DNA of 48,816 bases, from assembly GCA_902812445.1 (NCBI GenBank), contig CADDZF010000005.1, positions 1-48,816 on the forward strand. Direction: 5' to 3'. The position numbers were made by a program, and so were the translations under genes. Under the pieces are notes generated by a model that worked only from the letters and a program-made list of their open reading frames with translations, was not told the DNA's origin and ran no database searches. Source of the stretch: Methylococcaceae bacterium (GTDB lineage: Bacteria; Pseudomonadota; Gammaproteobacteria; Methylococcales; Methylococcaceae). This document shows positions 2,155 to 10,828 of the stretch, in pieces (position 1 is the stretch's first letter; each line of letters opens with the position of its first letter).

Positions 2155-3498
2155 ATGATGCCTTCGGATACCATCGCCGCCATCGCGACACCACCCGGGA
2201 AAGGCGGCATTGGGATCCTGCGCGTTTCAGGCCCTGGCGCAGGCCATATCATGCAGGCCATGCTGGGGAAAAAACTCAAACCGCGCTTCGCCGCTCGCCT
2301 GCCTTTCCTGGACGCGAACGACTCGATCATCGATAACGGCATAGCGCTTTATTTTCCCGCCCCCAAATCCTTCACCGGAGAAGATATCCTTGAACTGCAC
2401 GCACACGGCGGACCTCTGGTCATGGATATGCTGCTCCGCCGCGCGCTTGCCCTGGGCGTTCGTCTGGCAAGACCAGGCGAATTCAGCGAACGCGCTTTCC
2501 TGAACGGCAAGATCGACTTGGCACAGGCAGAAGCCATCGCCGATCTGATCGAAAGCACCAGCGAGCAGGCCGTCCGCTCCGCACAGAGATCGCTGCAAGG
2601 CGAATTCTCCCGATATATCCACGAACTCGTCGATAAACTAGTTGAGCTGAGGCTTTACGTCGAGGCCGCCATCGATTTTGCCGAGGAAGACATCGATTTT
2701 CTAGGTGAAGGCGCAGTAGCGGAACGATTACAAGCTATCCTCGTCAAGCTTCAGTGCATCAAACGCTCGGCCAACCAGGGCTGTTTAATGCGTGACGGCA
2801 TGACGGTCGTCATCGCGGGGGAACCCAACGCCGGCAAATCGAGTTTGCTCAATTGCCTTTCCGGACGCGAAACGGCCATTGTGACCGACAGGGCGGGCAC
2901 GACGCGCGATGCACTGCACGAGCGCATACAAATCGACGGCCTGCCCCTCCACATCATCGACACTGCGGGATTGCGCGAAAGCGAGGACAGCGTGGAACAA
3001 CAAGGCATCCGTCGCGCGCGCGAAGAAATCCATAAAGCCGACCACATCCTGCTGATCATGGATGACAGCGTTCACGCCGCCAACAGGGCGCTGATCGGCG
3101 CGCTGCCCGATAACATCGGCCTAACGCGGATTCATAACAAAATCGATCTGACCGGCGCGCCGCCGGGATCAAGAACAACCGCTGACGGGATCGAAATTTA
3201 CCTCTCCTGCAAGACCGGTGCAGGTCTTGCAGCGCTCCATCAGCATTTGAAGGCCTGCATGGGATATGCGGGAGAAAGCGAGGACGTCTTCATAGCCCGC
3301 CGCCGCCATCTCGATGCGCTGGCGAGGGCCGAATCGTTCGTCCAGGGCAGCATAGACCAACTAAACATTCGAGTAGCGCCCGAATTGCTCGCCGAAGATT
3401 TACGCCAAGCACAGCACGCACTTGCAGAAATCACCGGTGAGTTTACCAGCGAAGACCTGCTGGGCCGGATTTTCTCAAGTTTCTGTATTGGAAAATAG
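2155..3498 (+). CDS. mnmE: tRNA uridine-5-carboxymethylaminomethyl(34) synthesis GTPase MnmE
   Basis: GTPase that with MnmG (encoded at 13577) installs the cmnm5 group on wobble U34 of several tRNAs. An N-terminal folate-binding domain ([12 protein letters not shown]) is followed by a helical domain carrying the inserted G domain. Counting from the in-frame GTG at 2152, this has G1 G-E-P-N-A-G-K-S (223-230), G2 G-T-T-R-D, G3 D-T-A-G (270-273) and G4 N-K-I-D (329-332). The protein ends in the conserved F-C-I-G-K with the essential cysteine, so the gene is intact. GTG 2152 and ATG 2155/2158 are all possible starts; an ATG is preferred. The last 18 bases are the known insertion target of SGI1-type elements, and an integrase gene follows directly. 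Confidence 0.96.
3481..3490 (+). repeat. Left attachment core (attL candidate) within mnmE
   Basis: TTCTGTATTG encodes F-C-I and part of G of the MnmE C-terminus and begins the 18-bp region used as attB by SGI1-type elements. The same 10 bases occur at 10819-10828. Both copies are preceded by a TTTTCT tract within 13 bases. Confidence 0.55.
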
Positions 3499-3858
3499 CA
3501 AGCCTTCCACCTCATCCCTGAGTGTTCCGCAAGACCCCTCTAAATAAATATTTATAATGGATTTTTATTCCATTCTTGTCTTGCTTGTTCCGCGCTAATC
3601 CGTGAGAATACCTGCCCAAATGTATGCCCATGCTGGTAGCGTGAATCCCTGACTTAGGGGTACGCCGTACACACCAAGCCCCATTGTTAGGGGCGGAGAG
3701 ATCGACTCTCCATGGGCATACGAGGCGGGCATCAAATGACAGAAACCCACGCTACAAAAGGCTTCCGCGCATTTATGCCTAGGGTCATACCGTGTGCCAA
3801 AGGCGGTTTCCAAGACCCCCGGTTCTCATGGCACACGCAAAGAATGAGGTGCGGAATC
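3499..3858. other. Non-coding left arm: hairpins and candidate integrase arm sites
   Basis: No gene is supported here; the open frame from 3712 into the integrase lacks family similarity before 3859. The stretch begins with an AT-rich block containing AATGGA/TCCATT as a small stem (about 3556-3575), a possible mnmE transcript end. A GCCCC/GGGGC hairpin follows (about 3679-3695). Related motifs recur: TGTATGCCCATG near 3621, its inverse CATGGGCATACG near 3711, CGTGTGCC near 3790 and GGCACACG near 3830. A further CGTGTGCCCAT lies near the right end at 10750. Repeats at both ends of such an element are what arm-type integrase sites look like, but the assignment is inference. Confidence 0.45.
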
Positions 3859-5214
3859 ATGGCTCTGACCGATACCAAGCTGCGGAATCTCAAGCCCGGC
3901 GAGAAGCCCTATCAGAAAGCCGACGGGGGCGGGCTAATCGTGGAAGTCATGCCCGGCGGCCAAAAGGCCTGGCGCTTGCGCTATCGCTTGGGCGGGCGAG
4001 GCGGGAAACAAGAGAAAGTGACGCTAGGCGGCTACCCCGCCTTTTCACTGGCGGAAGCGCGGGCCTGGCGGGAAGACTGCAAGGCGCTGATAGCGCGTTG
4101 GCTGTCGCCCGTGGCTCTGAAGCGGGGCGATCCGATACCTGATAACGCCACAGCCTATGCCCGTGAGCTGGCGCAGGCCTTCATTCACGAATGGTGTTTT
4201 AAAACCCGCGAGAACGCCAAGACCCAGGAAGCGGCGACGGAAGCCGAGACGGTGGAAGCCTTTGCCCGGCGCTGGTATGCGGAGATCGCGGAACCGGCGA
4301 ACAGCAATCCCCGCAACCTCAAGCGCGTCTTGGAAAAGGACGTAATTCCGACCATAGGCGCGAAGCGGATTACCGAGGTGACCGTAACCGACATCCTGGC
4401 GATCACCGATGCCATCAAGGCGCGGGGAGCCGATCATATGGCCCTGCAAACCCGCAACGTCTTAAAGCGCCTGTTCGGTTATGCCATCGCCCGAGAGAAA
4501 GCCACGCTCAACCCGGCGGCGGCCATCGAAGCGAAATTCATTGCCAGTGCCCGAAGCCGCGACGTGGCTTTGACCCCGGACGAAATCGGGCGGCTGTTGC
4601 GGGCGATCTACCAGTCCAGCATGAAGCGGGCGCACAAGCTGGCGCTGCACCTGTTGATCCTGTGCATGGTGCGAAAGGGCGAACTGATCGGGGCGCGGTG
4701 GGAGGAAATCGACCTGGACAAAGCCGAGTGGGCCATACCACCCCATGACCGCGCGACGTTGGAGAATGGCCGGGTAGTGACCGCCATGAAAAAAGACAAG
4801 CCGCACCTTGTCCCCCTGTCCCGCCAAGCCGTGGCGATGTTCGAGGAATTGCAAAGCCTTGCAAGCGGTTCGGCATGGGTATTCCCGAGCAATCGAAGCC
4901 TAAAGCAACCCATTTCCCCTAGCACCCTGAACGTTACCGTACGGGCCCTGGACATCGACGTACGGGATTTCGTGATTCACGACTTCAGAAGGACGGCATC
5001 CACCCACCTACACGAGGCCGGTTTCAACTCGGACTGGATCGAGAAAGCCCTGGCCCATGAAACCAAAGGCATCCGGGGCGTTTATAACCGGGCGCAATAT
5101 GCCGAGCAGCGGCGGGAAATGCTGCAATGGTGGGCGGATTTCGTCGATAGCCAAATCGAGGAAGGCCGGGAAGTGATTATTGGCCGTTTCGGGAAAGCCT
5201 ACCGCTCGGCATAA
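3859..5214 (+). CDS. int: P4-type tyrosine integrase
   Basis: Site-specific tyrosine recombinase that would integrate and excise the element at the end of mnmE. The 451-aa protein has an N-terminal arm-binding domain (M-A-L-T-D-T-K-L-R-N-L, then V-T-L-G-G-Y-P-A-F-S-L-A-E-A-R), a core-binding SAM-like domain and a catalytic domain. Catalytic residues visible are Arg272 (M-V-R-K-G-E-L), the K-K-D-K-P-H hairpin, His374 and Arg377 (H-D-F-R-R), His400 (A-H-E) and Tyr409 in G-V-Y-N-R, or Tyr414. The ATG at 3859 is chosen because it gives the canonical start and has a GAGG ribosome site 8 bases upstream. An upstream open frame to 3712 is ignored. The gene points away from mnmE and appears intact. 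Confidence 0.93.
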   Translation: MALTDTKLRNLKPGEKPYQKADGGGLIVEVMPGGQKAWRLRYRLGGRGGKQEKVTLGGYPAFSLAEARAWREDCKALIARWLSPVALKRGDPIPDNATAYARELAQAFIHEWCFKTRENAKTQEAATEAETVEAFARRWYAEIAEPANSNPRNLKRVLEKDVIPTIGAKRITEVTVTDILAITDAIKARGADHMALQTRNVLKRLFGYAIAREKATLNPAAAIEAKFIASARSRDVALTPDEIGRLLRAIYQSSMKRAHKLALHLLILCMVRKGELIGARWEEIDLDKAEWAIPPHDRATLENGRVVTAMKKDKPHLVPLSRQAVAMFEELQSLASGSAWVFPSNRSLKQPISPSTLNVTVRALDIDVRDFVIHDFRRTASTHLHEAGFNSDWIEKALAHETKGIRGVYNRAQYAEQRREMLQWWADFVDSQIEEGREVIIGRFGKAYRSA

Positions 5215-5323
5215 TGCTTTGCCGCGCCTAGCTTTCGGCTGATCCCCGAGGGCGAAAACCGGGACACCCTTACCCGGCTGGCGCGGCACCCCATTCAAGG
5301 GCGATGCGAAAGGGGCGCAAACG

Positions 5324-6374: not shown

Positions 6375-6491
6375 ACTGCTGGAAGATTCGGCCTCAAAAA
6401 ATCTTTCGAATATCTTCGACAGGGGCAATTTCGGTGGATAGTCTGCTTGACCATGCCGGATGGTCCCGGCGACTTCACTGGAGTGCCCCGC

Positions 6492-6758
6492 ATGAGCCCG
6501 CAACGACACAAAGCCCCTGTTCACCCCACCATCCTTCGGCGCAAACAAGTCGAAGCCCGTATCGGGCTTTCCCGTACAGCCATCTATTCAAAAATGAAGT
6601 TCGATCCCAAAAGGCCGAATGACTATGACCCGACCTTTCCCAGGCCGATTAGCATCGGCGCTAAAGCCGTGGGCTGGATCGAATCGGAAATCGAGGAATG
6701 GCTAGCCGCCCGAATCCAAAAGACCCGCAAGGCCAGGCTTAACGAGGAGCGCCCATGA
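6492..6758 (+). CDS. AlpA-family DNA-binding regulator/excisionase
   Basis: Small (88 aa) MerR-like winged-helix protein of the AlpA/phage-regulatory type. It probably acts as activator or directionality factor for the integrase. The signature is L-R-R-K-Q-V-E-A-R-I-G-L-S-R-T-A-I-Y-S-K-M, then F-P-R-P-I-S-I-G-A-K-A-V-G-W, then E-I-E-E-W-L-A-A-R-I. The ATG at 6492 is chosen over 6447 because a GGAG site sits 8 bases before it and the upstream residues do not look like the family. The stop overlaps the next gene as ATGA, so the two are co-transcribed and coupled. Such genes commonly sit just before the primase in satellite-type elements. Confidence 0.85.
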   Translation: MSPQRHKAPVHPTILRRKQVEARIGLSRTAIYSKMKFDPKRPNDYDPTFPRPISIGAKAVGWIESEIEEWLAARIQKTRKARLNEERP

Positions 6759-7194
6759 GACCAAACGAAAAGGGCCGCGACGGTGGCGACCGTGCGACCC
6801 TAGAGACACCCTACGCCGGCGATTATACCCGCAAAGCCCCGCAAGTCACTAGGCTTGAGGCGGCGATCAATGAGCGCCCGATTGCCGTGGTGAAGAACTA
6901 CCGATCCAGGGTGACGGAGGTGCGGCAAGTTACCTTCAATGAACTGGCCGCTCGACTCAGCACGTCGAAGATCGGCGCAAAAGAAGGGACTGGATGGGTT
7001 CCCGCTGACATTGAGCCTGGACCCCGCACAGCCGAGCGCGTCAAGGCGGTGTCCTATCTGGTGTTGGACGTGGAAGCCGATGCCGAGGCGGTCAAGGATG
7101 AGACCGGCACCCCGCTGAACGATAAGCACGGCGACATCATCAAGCGCGTGATTGGACCCGAGCCTCCCGATGTGGATGACATGCTGGCCGAATT

Positions 7195-7231
7195 GGCGGT
7201 GCAGGGCTGGCGGTGCAGGGCTGGCGGTGCA
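7195..7231 (+). repeat. 14-bp tandem duplication causing a frameshift
   Basis: GGCGGTGCAGGGCT is present twice in tandem (7195-7208, 7209-7222), followed by a partial third copy GGCGGTGCA. Removing one unit joins the two primase frames as E-L-A-V-Q-G-W-R-C-I-L-H-T-T-Y and makes the combined length divisible by three. Confidence 0.9.
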
Positions 7232-7837
7232 TCCTGCATACCACCTACTCCCATAGCACCGAGCATCCCCGCTATCGGCTGACGTTCGACCTGTCCCGGG
7301 CCTTGCTGCCCGATGAAGTCAAACCCCTAGGCTTGCATGTCGCCGGATTGATGGGCATTGGCGATTGTATCGATGCTAAATGCCTTGAACCGGCGCGGCT
7401 ATTCTATTTCCCCCGCTGTCCCGAAGAACGGCTAGACATGTTCCAGCATGGCACGGGCGATGGTGAACCGTTGCCTGTGGATGCCTTGCTGGAGGAGTTC
7501 CACCGCATCGAGCGGGCGGCGAAAAGCACCCCGATACGGGCGGGGCAAAGCGGGAGCGTCATCGCGGCATTCAACGCCGCGTACGACGTGAGCTTGATCC
7601 TTGAACAGCACGGCTATGTCCGAAAGGGACGCAAGCGCTGGCTATGGCCGAAAAGCACGTCGGGACTGCCGGGAGTGAGGATCCTGCCCGATTCATTGCC
7701 CGAGCGCATCTATTCATCGCACCAGGGCGATCCCCTGGCGGACGGCCACGCGCATGATGCCTTCGATTGCTGGCGCATCTTGCAACACGACGGAGAGATG
7801 ACCCGCGCGGTGCGGGAGGCAGCAAGGCTGCTGAGGC

Positions 7838-7855
7838 GTGAACATTGTGAACATT
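7838..7855 (+). repeat. Two GTGAACATT 9-bp direct repeats inside the primase gene
   Basis: GTGAACATT occurs twice in tandem (7838-7846, 7847-7855). It differs by one base from the GTGAACGTT unit of the downstream arrays and contains a GTGAACA core like that of phage P4 type I iterons. It lies 90 bases before an inverted three-unit array. Confidence 0.7.
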
Positions 7856-7907
7856 CATCTCACTTGATATCCACACGTGAAATGTTGTCGGTGGACGATC
7901 AAGCGGC

Positions 7908-7970
7908 AGAAAATAATTTCTCCCAGAGAAAAACTTCCAAACAACGTTCACAACGTTCACAACGTTCACA
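7908..7970 (-). repeat. Inverted intragenic copy of the iteron-plus-hairpin repeat
   Basis: Three tandem ACGTTCACA units (7944-7952, 7953-7961, 7962-7970) are preceded by the complement of the hairpin/T-tract segment. The whole matches, in reverse, the cores at 9705, 9999 and 10128. It stays in frame with the primase linker because the unit is 9 bp. The inverted orientation means the terminator-like hairpin has its T-tract only on the antisense strand, so it should not stop primase transcription. Confidence 0.85.
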
Positions 7971-9670
7971 CCTGGAGGATTCTCAGGACACCGAAAGCCC
8001 ACCCCAAGCCTTGCCCGGTCCGACAGCGGAAGATCTGGCTCAGGCCGTACAAACCATTGAATCGGCTATTAGGGAATGTGGCGCTAAGCCCGGCATCCTG
8101 GCATCCGAAAGCTTTCGCGAGGCTTGCCGGACGACTCGTGAGCAAAACCACGAGGAATGGTTCCGCCTTCGCGTTGCCCTTAAAAAGGCCAAGCCGTCTG
8201 GTATCTTGCTGTCCGACATCGATGACGCCACCCGGCCGGAGAACGAAGGCAGCGCCGATGCTTCGACGCTGGCCGATGAGTTGGTGGCCATGGTCACGGC
8301 GCAGGCCGAGCTGTTCCACGATCCGGCCGGCGAGGCCTTCGCCACCGTGGACGACAACGGCATCGGCAAAACTTTCAAGCTAGACACGGTAGCGTTTGAA
8401 CAGTGGCTCAGCTATGCCTTTTACCAATCGACAAAAGACAGTGGAGGCCTGGGCCGGGCTGCCAGTGACGTCAGCATACGGACGGCAAAGACGACGCTTG
8501 CGGGAATCGCTAGACACGAAGGCCCAGAACATCCGGTATACCTTCGGGCTGCGCCATGCCCGGGAGGCTATATCATCGACATGGGCGGCGATGACTGGCG
8601 AGTTATCGAGGTATTGCCGACCGGCTGGCGGGTACTCGACAAGTCGGCTATTCGGTTTTGGCGGCCCAAACCAATGCGGGCGCTACCGCACCCCGAAACC
8701 GGCGGCGACGTGGCACGGCTGTGGGAGTTCGCCAACATCCCGGACAATCTCAGGCCCTTGGTGCTGGCGTGGTTGCTCGACGCCTGGCGGCCAGAAACGC
8801 CCTTCCCTGTTCTGGAATTGTGTGGCGTTCAAGGCACGATCAAAAGCAGCACACAAGACAAGCTCCGGCGCTTGATAGACCCCAACGCAGTCAATCTCCG
8901 GGCGGCACCGAAATCAGTAGAAGATATCTTCGTCGGTGCGGGCTGCAACTGGCTGGTAAGCTTCAACAACTTGTCCCATTTGTCGGCACCGCAACAGGAC
9001 GCCTTTTGCAACCTGGCTCATGGTGGCGGCTTCGCGGCGCGCACCTTGTACACCAACGCAGACGAAACACTAATCGAGTGTAAAAGGGCTGTAGTGATTA
9101 ACGGTATCGTACCGCTAGTCACCGCGCAGGACTTGGCCGACCGAGTGATTCATGCCGAGTTGCGTCCCATCGACTACCTCGACGAAAACGAAATCGAAGC
9201 GGCATTTATAGCAGCTTGGCCGGCGATCCTGGGCGGGCTGCTAAATCTGTTCGTCAAGACCCTGGCTTACCTGCCGTTGGTAAAACCGCAACGCCTGCCG
9301 CGCATGGGCGATTTTGCCAAGTTGGGCGAAGCGATGATGCAGGCCGAGGGCCACGCGGCCGGTGCGTTTATCGAGCTTTATGCGGCCAATCGGCGCGAAT
9401 CCGTGGAGCGCGGACTTGAGGCTTCGTCCGTGGCATCGGCCATCCGGGAGATGGCGGACACACACCAAGGCAGCGGCGCGGTATTTGAGGGCACGATGAA
9501 GCGGCTACTCGACGTCCTGGCCGACTATCGAGGGACCGCCGACGCCTGGCCGAAATCTCCCAAGGGGCTCAGCGGCGAGCTTCGACGCCAGCAACCCGCG
9601 CTAAGTGCCATCGGTATTAATGTCGCTATTGGCAAAGCCGGGCGCGAGGGCGTCCCCGTCACGATTCGTC

Positions 9671-9810
9671 AGAGGACACCGTGACGACTTTCCATCTCCG
9701 ACGATGTGAACGTTGTGAACGTTGTGAACGTTGTTTGGAAGTTTTTCTCTGGGAGAAATTATTTTTTGGCTTTAATGCCGACAAAAAACGCCATCGATTA
9801 GAGGACACCG
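9671..9810 (+). repeat. Long repeat copy A downstream of the primase gene
   Basis: The unit starts and ends with AGAGGACACCG (9671 and 9800), giving a 129-bp period. It contains three TGTGAACGT units (9705-9731), a hairpin with T-tract and a GCCGACAAAAAA segment. Its first bases are the last codons and stop of the primase gene. A frame from GTG 9681 (82 aa, with a C-E-R-C-E-R-C run) crosses it but is not credible as a gene. Confidence 0.85.
9744..9767 (+). terminator. Hairpin with T-tract in repeat copy A
   Basis: TTTCTC-TGG-GAGAAA forms a perfect 6-bp stem followed by TTATTTTTT. It lies 60 bases after the primase stop and could end the element's transcript. The stem is short and AU-rich, so strength is uncertain. 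Confidence 0.5.
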
Positions 9811-9820
9811 CTAAAGTGGC

Positions 9821-9838
9821 TTTAGACGGTTTAGACGG
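9821..9838 (+). repeat. TTTAGACGG 9-bp tandem pair
   Basis: TTTAGACGG at 9821-9829 and 9830-9838. Unrelated in sequence to TGTGAACGT but with the same 9-bp period. It lies in the unique spacer between long repeat copies A and B. Confidence 0.65.
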
Positions 9839-9995
9839 TGAGTTGCCTCAGTTACCGAGCCTGGCTTTTTTGTTAGAAAAACAATGGATTACGCATAAGC
9901 TGGGTCCAGGCGAGCTTTTTTTCTCTTAAAAAACAATAAAGTACAACGATCCCAATTTGGGGTTCTTTGCCGTGCCATTTCTGCGTAGCGGCGCT

Positions 9996-10104
9996 CGATG
10001 TGAACGTTGTGAACGTTGTGAACGTTGTTTGGAAGTTTTTCTCTGGGAGAAATTATTTTTTGGCTTTAATGCCGACAAAAAATGCCATCGATTAGAGGAC
10101 ACCG
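9996..10104 (+). repeat. Long repeat copy B
   Basis: Matches copy A at an offset of 294 bases from CGATG through AGAGGACACCG, with one visible substitution (aaaatgcc for aaacgcc). It holds three TGTGAACGT units at 9999-10025 and the hairpin at 10038-10061. It runs directly into copy C through the shared AGAGGACACCG. Confidence 0.85.
10038..10061 (+). terminator. Hairpin with T-tract in repeat copy B
   Basis: Identical to the hairpin in copy A: TTTCTC-TGG-GAGAAA then TTATTTTTT. It is a second possible transcription stop in series. Confidence 0.4.
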
Positions 10105-10195
10105 TGACGACTTTCCATCTCCGACGATGTGAACGTTGTGAACGTTGTGAACGTTGTTTGGAAGTTTTTCTCTGGGAGAAATTATTTTTTGGCTT
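10094..10195 (+). repeat. Long repeat copy C
   Basis: Matches copy A at an offset of 423 bases. It includes the duplicate of the primase 3' end (AGAGGACACCGTGACGAC), three TGTGAACGT units at 10128-10154 and the hairpin. It diverges after TTGGCTT, about 10195. Copies B and C together look like a tandem amplification of a 129-bp unit. Confidence 0.85.
10167..10190 (+). terminator. Hairpin with T-tract in repeat copy C
   Basis: Third identical TTTCTC-TGG-GAGAAA stem with a following T-rich run. Confidence 0.4.
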
Positions 10196-10320
10196 CCATA
10201 CTCGGTGAGTTGCCGTATACATATTCTGTTTTTTTTTCGCGAGGCGGCTTTGATTCTGACCCCGGCACGGCGAGCCTTGCGAGTGCTGCTCTTACTACGA
10301 AACCGAAAGGCAAATCGCGA
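10196..10320. other. Non-coding stretch after repeat copy C
   Basis: No gene is supported. The stretch includes a run of nine T at about 10230. Several short open frames cross it on both strands, but none shows a recognisable family, and their repetitive parts come from the flanking 9-bp repeats. Confidence 0.4.
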
Positions 10321-10338
10321 ACTGTCGCAACTGTCGCA
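10321..10338 (+). repeat. ACTGTCGCA 9-bp tandem pair
   Basis: ACTGTCGCA at 10321-10329 and 10330-10338. A third unrelated sequence with a 9-bp period in the same right arm. Confidence 0.65.
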
Positions 10339-10473
10339 GGTGCAAACCCCCCAGGAAGGGCAAAACCGCATGGGCGGCATTACCCCCTGAGCCTGCACGC
10401 ATGTTGTGTAAAGGTTCAGCAATACTTACACATTAGAAAACGAGCGTTTGCAAAAACAGGGGAAAAAGCGGTT

Positions 10474-10573
10474 TATCCTGTCCTCAACGGCGATCCTGTC
10501 CTCGATCCTGTCCTCAGCTAAGTTATTGATGGAAGGTTTCTTTTGATAGATTGAGGACAGGATAGACAGGATA
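10474..10573. repeat. Inverted iteron cluster built on TATCCTGTC/GACAGGATA
   Basis: ATCCTGTCCTC occurs three times in direct orientation (10475-10485, 10493-10503, 10505-10515). The complementary strand motif GACAGGATA occurs twice in 9-bp tandem (10556-10564, 10565-10573). The two arms face each other across an AT-rich 40-base centre, a geometry seen at replication origins and at operator clusters. Confidence 0.7.
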
Positions 10574-10594
10574 AATGGGGAAAAAAAGAAATAG

Positions 10595-10708
10595 ATGAAA
10601 AAAGCGCGATCCCCAGGCGCTGGCTATAAAGGCGGAATGCAAGCCCTGCTGCGAGAAGTGGCGCGAACCTTAAGAGCGCAAGCTGAGACTTTGAAGGACA
10701 TCGAGTGA
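10595..10708 (+). CDS. Possible small basic protein (37 aa)
   Basis: Open frame starting M-K-K-A-R-S-P-G-A-G-Y-K-G-G and ending L-K-D-I-E, with an amphipathic helical middle (L-L-R-E-V-A-R-T-L-R-A-Q-A-E). A GGGG-AAAAAAAG purine stretch lies upstream at a loose distance. It is directly downstream of the inverted iteron cluster and is the only plausible frame in the right arm of the element. Family not recognised. It may be a remnant of a larger gene or spurious. Confidence 0.3.
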   Translation: MKKARSPGAGYKGGMQALLREVARTLRAQAETLKDIE

Positions 10709-10818
10709 GAGGCAAAAAACACCATTGATGGGTAATTGAGTGCACAAACGTGTGCCCATAATGAAAAAGTAAAATATCAAAACTCAGTAACGGTGCGGCT
10801 TCGGGACAGTTTTCTAGC
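10709..10818. other. Right end of the element, no gene
   Basis: Contains GTGCACAAACGTGTGCCCAT (about 10740-10759), which resembles the TGTATGCCCATG motifs at the left end and may be an integrase arm site. An AT-rich run follows up to the candidate right attachment core. Confidence 0.35.
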
Positions 10819-10828
10819 TTCTGTATTG
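10819..10828 (+). repeat. Right attachment core (attR candidate)
   Basis: TTCTGTATTG, identical to the first 10 bases of the mnmE end sequence at 3481. The following bases (AATGCGG) do not restore an mnmE C-terminus, so either the relic has drifted or the match is coincidental. Confidence 0.45.

Follow-up and report, generated by a model that had tools for sequence, protein, structure and literature searches.

In the SaPI Rep and SCCmec Cch2 helicases, a C-terminal domain binds iterons located directly downstream of the protein's own gene (PMC7581432). The primase-helicase gene orf904 of pRN1 lies directly before the origin region, a 100-nt stem-loop without iterons (PMC4234260). In P4, crr lies directly downstream of alpha and contains GTGAACAGT twice, with a spacing of 9 bp, next to an A/T run; inverted copies follow after approximately 40 bp. 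In phage lambda four iterons lie within gene O. For most integrated elements and satellites, to our knowledge, the origin of replication has yet to be located.

Organization of the element

The element compared with these systems lies at the end of mnmE in a 48,816-nt stretch of DNA from a Methylococcaceae bacterium, referred to as the window. Its features are given below; the repeats are called iterons for their proposed role.

3472-3490, no strand: left attachment-like repeat TTCTCAAGTTTCTGTATTG at the end of mnmE (direct repeat D3, 84% identical to 10810-10828; weak, in the expected placement)
3712-5214, + strand: P4-type tyrosine integrase gene (Pfam PF00589, PF13356, PF22022), the true start possibly internal
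5221-5301, + strand: int-alpA RNA (Rfam RF02996, 68 bits), between the integrase gene and the next gene
6447-6758, + strand: AlpA regulator gene (Pfam PF05930, E 3.5e-18)
6755-7282, + strand: 5′ portion of a primase-like gene ended by a frame shift (ORF; matches L035)
7194-7231, + strand: 14-bp tandem duplication, 2.7 copies, shifting the primase frame
7213-9684, + strand: primase-helicase ORF (PHROG 9765/256; AF2 model)
7838-7855, + strand (direct orientation): putative in-gene iteron pair, GTGAACATT x2
7907-7970, - strand: putative in-gene iteron module, an inverted copy of the downstream module (98% over 64 nt, including 61/61 nt identical)
7941-7970, inside the preceding module: putative in-gene iterons, (ACAACGTTC) x3.3
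9544-9669, + strand: coding stretch of the C-terminal winged helix, the proposed iteron reader (alignment, iteron-separating columns, model)
9671-9799, + strand: downstream module copy 1, a 129-nt unit with iterons TGTGAACGT x3.3 at 9705-9734
9811-9995, + strand: 185-bp insert separating copies 1 and 2, with TTTAGACGG x2.1 at 9821-9839
9996-10093, + strand: downstream module copy 2 (iterons 9999-10028; 99% identical to copy 1)
10094-10195, + strand: downstream module copy 3, truncated (iterons 10128-10157; 100% identical to copy 1 over 83 nt)
10320-10338, + strand: AACTGTCGC x2.1 array, the 9-mer being the same as in arrays beside phage primase/helicase genes
10475-10573, no strand: ATCCTGTCCTC x3, spacer, and inverted copy with GACAGGATA x2
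10810-10828, no strand: right attachment-like repeat, direct repeat with 3472-3490

The int-alpA RNA is typical for P4-like elements. The primase-helicase ORF encodes, in order, the C-terminal part of a primase (to approximately 7834), a linker containing the putative iteron modules, an SF3/D5-like helicase and a C-terminal winged helix. The 14-bp duplication either broke the primase gene or constitutes a slippage switch. Because the primase half is frame-shifted, the copy of the element in the window may no longer replicate.

No Pfam or NCBIfam model matched the helicase ORF, and its fold was predicted by AlphaFold2. The alignment-based model reached a pLDDT of 84 (38 for a single-sequence model) and covered the helicase and the winged helix, which was placed at the C-terminal end; in the full arrangement of primase, SF3 helicase and C-terminal domain, the primase half is the frame-shifted part. 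The model contained the D5-like SF3 helicase fold of SaPI Rep and SCCmec Cch. It aligned with the SaPI5 primase-helicase 7ola (Z 18.7, rmsd 6.0, 370 residues aligned) and also matched pox D5 and SCCmec Cch, 5dgk being found by Foldseek with an E-value of 2.5e-8.

Comparison with described origins

The downstream repeats resemble P4 crr in their GTGAACA-like core, their 9-10 bp spacing and their position next to a primase-helicase gene (three copies of GTGAACGTT in the window versus two of GTGAACAGT in P4). Both systems have direct and inverted clusters, and the element carries a P4-type integrase and AlpA. In contrast, the annotated P4 record places the clusters outside alpha, whereas the window has an inverted module within the gene that covaries with the downstream module, and the helicase ORF and alpha shared no family model in the searches made. 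P4 ori2, which we take to lie inside alpha, is not annotated in the P4 record, and a scan of alpha yielded no tandem array; it is therefore given no weight in the comparison.

With SaPI and SCCmec Cch2 the element shares a D5-like SF3 helicase whose gene is directly followed by iterons, and a C-terminal domain as the reader, the last as proposed here. It differs in that the putative origin is not outside the coding sequence, both modules being within the ORF in relatives, and in the sequence and period of the iterons; an inverted in-gene copy is not described in PMC7581432. As in lambda, the putative iterons lie within the gene of the (here putative) initiator, between the primase and helicase parts (7907-7970). 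O, by contrast, is not a helicase and has 18-bp iterons, and the annotated lambda stretch lacks a second, inverted set at the 3′ end. The window protein has an SF3/D5 fold and is not O-like. The order of primase-helicase gene and then origin is shared with pRN1, but the pRN1 origin lacks iterons. The layout in the window combines known traits, with iterons in the gene and at its end that are mutually inverted and change together. A literature search of papers available without subscription returned no account of twin 9-bp iterons located within a gene.

Period-9 arrays in and beside the helicase gene

The preliminary description of this locus, made from the DNA alone, had reported TGTGAACGT x3 (9705, 9999, 10128), TTTAGACGG x2, AACTGTCGC x2, GACAGGATA x2 and the copies of ATCCTGTCCTC, all of which were recovered, the TGTGAACGT arrays as x3.3 each and those of TTTAGACGG and AACTGTCGC as x2.1. 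It was confined to the right arm and overlooked GTGAACATT x2 and (ACAACGTTC) x3.3 inside the primase-helicase gene. The repeats had been described as unrelated families with a shared 9-bp period. Period-9 arrays indeed exceeded chance; however, the three TGTGAACGT arrays belong to a single family, being duplicated copies of the 129-nt unit, and the ATCCTGTCCTC copies are spaced by 18 and 12 bp, mostly not at period 9. The unit is bounded by AGAGGACACCG at 9671, 9800 and 10094, with copies 2 and 3 adjoining. The first downstream array starts 20 bp after the helicase stop codon, and the iterons of the in-gene module start 85 bp past the GTGAACATT pair.

Six exact period-9 arrays of at least two copies were found in the 956-bp right arm (9685-10640), compared with a mean of 0.01 and a maximum of 1 in 1000 dinucleotide shuffles of the same sequence. 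The element as a whole contained eight such arrays and the remainder of the window none, and a search of the element at periods 8, 10 and 11 returned no arrays. The preliminary description had named equal frequency in intergenic host DNA as evidence against an iteron bank. In 400 kb drawn from 20 further contigs of this genome, only four arrays were present, all of two copies and none of approximately three. These host arrays, and the fact that two-copy arrays such as TTTAGACGG can come from slippage, are what could be said for chance or simple slippage in an A/T-rich non-coding arm, a reading that is scarcely credible overall given the shuffles and the conservation of the layout in relatives. 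Chance is refuted for the GTGAAC family, while slippage may account for TTTAGACGG. A host-wide repeat or MITE was also ruled out: the 129-nt unit had no further copy in the host genome outside the element, and GACAGGATNNACAGGAT occurred once in the genome. No exact TGTGAACGT x3 was found in viral contigs.

Bracketing of the helicase gene in related elements

Relatives of the element were sought in 301 genomes of the order and were carried by 31. The helicase gene was bracketed in 15 of 16 elements, the window included, by a 9-bp array in the linker or 5′ coding part (inverted) and another at the 3′ end (direct), as scored by a lag-9 detector that 1.8% of 155-nt control windows passed; two in-gene arrays and one downstream array were short or imperfect and visible by alignment only. 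In 15 of 16 elements an array lay at most 150 nt from the end of the helicase match. The close relative L044 (G195:C110) has lost both arrays and persists. The fused primase was absent from most relatives.

Each module consisted of three iterons, GTTGTTT or a similar sequence, approximately ten bases, and a brief A-rich stretch resembling CGCC/GAAAGAAAAA; the A/T-rich stretch adjoining the iterons was retained in both copies. In relatives both modules were mostly coding DNA inside the ORF, generating tails such as NNVANVANVAT with SGNIGNIGNVV, NNVPNVPNVPT and NDVHNVHHVHP. The N-terminal parts fused to the helicase are long in the window and in L042, and there the in-gene array was in a different frame (QRSQRSQRS, STTSTTSTN). 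Because frame and peptide vary among elements while the DNA motif is retained, it is the DNA that is kept and not the peptide.

Viral relatives (38-42% identity) carried arrays immediately behind the helicase; inverted arrays followed after another 45-250 bp. In the distant relatives L104 and L113-L115 the repeats were weaker or otherwise spaced; the upstream and downstream arrays of L115 were in direct orientation, and in L113 and L115 both orientations occurred close together. A small ORF (MSALLKIMAAGFDVSMDD... in L038) followed the helicase gene directly in most of L038-L048 and was absent from the window. An extra TGGGAACGA array (8222-8247) preceded the helicase part of L050 by approximately 1.7 kb.

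Concerted change of the modules and the winged helix

The iterons varied by element, comprising TGTGAACGT, GGTGAACAT, GGTGAATAT, TGGCAACAT, TGGGAACAT, TGTTGACGT and CTGTACTTG. L039 and L041, related elements in one genome (G244), carried TGGCAACAT (GGCAAC) and TGGGAACAT (GGGAAC), respectively. In-gene and downstream modules matched better within elements (mean 58.6) than between them (28.6; n=17, permutation p 1e-5, 0/100,000 better), and the match often extended into the flanks.

Protein columns that separate elements by iteron base were then scored over 637 columns. For base 3 (T in six elements, G in eight), 10 of the 637 columns separated. Seven of the ten lay in or beside array-coded tails (237-252, C-terminal tail); the remaining three were residues 774, 791 and 806, all in or beside the winged helix, and none fell in the 500-residue helicase core. 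Residue 791 separated base 3 perfectly: every T element carried R there and every G element K. For base 4, the six elements with C had V, I or T at a wing residue and the four with G had R or K (Fisher 0.005, which ignores descent), a result weaker than that for base 3 as many further columns also separated (5 versus 3 sequences). These correlations come from 14-17 related elements uncorrected for shared descent, which limits the strength of the test. In the core tree, the window fell outside the other GTGAAC elements and the sisters L039 and L040 differed in iteron, which argues that descent alone is not a full explanation. The earlier proposal that the arrays are iterons tied to the primase-helicase is borne out to the extent that related elements carry helicase-adjoining 9-bp arrays whose sequence covaries with the protein, the very comparison it had called for. 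In L044, the wing residue is R, for which GGGAAC iterons are predicted.

Identical stretches that exceed the iterons (61/61 nt in the window, 47/47 in L040) and the iteron switch between sister elements would also suit a diversification or gene-conversion device, in which the in-gene copy, and with it the protein tail it encodes, would be overwritten from the downstream cassettes in the manner of a DGR or by recombination. We regard such a device as improbable, as the peptide is unconserved with differing frames (QRSQRS, TTSTTS, NVHNVH), the variation follows the winged helix, and none of five element ORFs scanned with Pfam matched a reverse transcriptase family. Still less probable is control at the RNA level, by pairing of the mRNA linker with its own 3′ end (a 61-bp duplex in the window). 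The perfect inverted complementarity inside one presumed transcript would allow it, but the upstream and downstream arrays of L115 are directly oriented, both orientations occur nearby in L113, L115 and P4 crr, and the arrays covary with a DNA-binding domain.

A putative origin of replication

The TGTGAACGT arrays are probably replication-origin iterons of the P4/SaPI type, bound by the element's own helicase via its winged helix, and forming twin modules in coding DNA. As predicted from sequence and the modelled fold, the SF3/D5-type helicase would bind TGTGAACGT iterons through the C-terminal winged helix, assemble there, open the neighboring A/T-rich stretch and start replication of the excised element; binding, origin activity and strand opening at the iterons are what we infer. 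The origin would have at least two inverted parts bracketing the helicase half, one reversed in the linker-coding DNA and one where the gene ends. The latter lies just past the stop codon in the window, tandemly tripled, whereas both parts are in coding DNA in relatives. The 9-bp period would keep the reading frame open while selection acts on the DNA, and upon a change of iteron specificity both parts and the winged helix would shift together. Points against this reading are the frame-shifted primase half in the window, the persistence of L044 after loss of both arrays, and the weaker or otherwise spaced repeats of L104 and L113-L115.

It is rather unlikely that the arrays are instead operator or copy-control sites, at which the helicase or AlpA represses its own transcription or blocks initiation by looping, with the origin elsewhere. 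An in-gene site with inverted sites 1.7 kb away would suit looping, and the P4 record likewise lists crr and ori as distinct sites; however, the arrays occupy the position of the SaPI and SCCmec origins, directly where the helicase gene ends, and the iteron-adjoining A/T-rich stretch is kept in both copies. If the origin rule holds, a period-9 scan of primase-helicase gene ends and linkers would point to origin and reader in many elements, and tails in databases such as NVANVANVA or TVATVA would be DNA sites and not peptides. Iterons and winged helices, matched element by element, would provide ready material for deriving a protein-DNA code; they would also suggest a way for elements of the same cell (L039 and L041; GGCAAC and GGGAAC) to escape cross-talk.

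Other repeat blocks and period-9 arrays at other loci

The preliminary description viewed the right arm as a collection of cassettes accumulated by insertion or exchange. As a collection it is reduced by the TGTGAACGT arrays being a duplicated unit and by TTTAGACGG being without support, while AACTGTCGC does recur beside phage replication genes. Exact ACTGTCGCA x2 was present in 44 viral contigs, in several beside Prim-Pol/AAA_25, DUF3987 or D5_N genes; others flanked terminases or fell within unrelated coding sequence. Given this viral recurrence, it is quite possible that the AACTGTCGC array is an iteron with a different specificity. Exchange is also seen: the primase half of L036 has CTGCTATTC x2.7, then inverted copies, in frame after AARLLG, at a site homologous to that of GTGAACATT in the window. 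It is possible that several primase specificities are stored in one element. In the viral contigs L146-L155, L166, L169 and L174, direct and inverted ACTGTCGCA clusters lay mostly approximately 570-630 bp from a large ORF of 635-648 aa where complete, with Prim-Pol/AAA_25 in L147, the one scanned.

TTTAGACGG was rejected as a recurrent phage iteron, since four of four viral matches were collagen-like coding repeats, and a similar TTTAGACAC pair near L039 was discarded as support, the alignment being only 26 nt. The block of ATCCTGTCCTC (10475, 10493 and 10505, + strand; 10553-10563, - strand) and GACAGGATA x2 (10556-10573) could be a second origin-like block or integrase arm sites. Its direct-spacer-inverted layout is that of L113-L115, but with spacing of 12 and 18 bp. 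The integrase arms in the P4 record are 12-bp tandems flanking the core on both sides; no arm-site-like ATCCTGTCCTC repeats were found near the left end of the element. Within the order, the 10440-10620 block had only weak matches of 25-30 nt.

Period-9 arrays occurred at 15.4 per 100 kb at DUF3987 loci versus 1.0 in host DNA, with 17 arrays at period 9 versus 6, 1 and 4 at periods 8, 10 and 11. The density was 14.7 per 100 kb at D5_N loci (only four arrays) and 4.7 at Prim-Pol loci (two arrays). We raise as a tentative and rather doubtful extension that these loci belong to a widespread undescribed class of protein-coding origins. Such origins would have 9-bp direct and inverted iteron cassettes in frame within or at the ends of primase-helicase genes (the SF3 family described here, DUF3987, D5_N and Prim-Pol/AAA_25), swapped as cassettes and read by a simple code between winged-helix residue and iteron base, and the right arm would hold remnants of several specificities. 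Among the DUF3987 loci L199-L228, several period-9 arrays were followed by inverted copies, and TGCTATTCC- and TGCGACAGT-type arrays recurred across genera.
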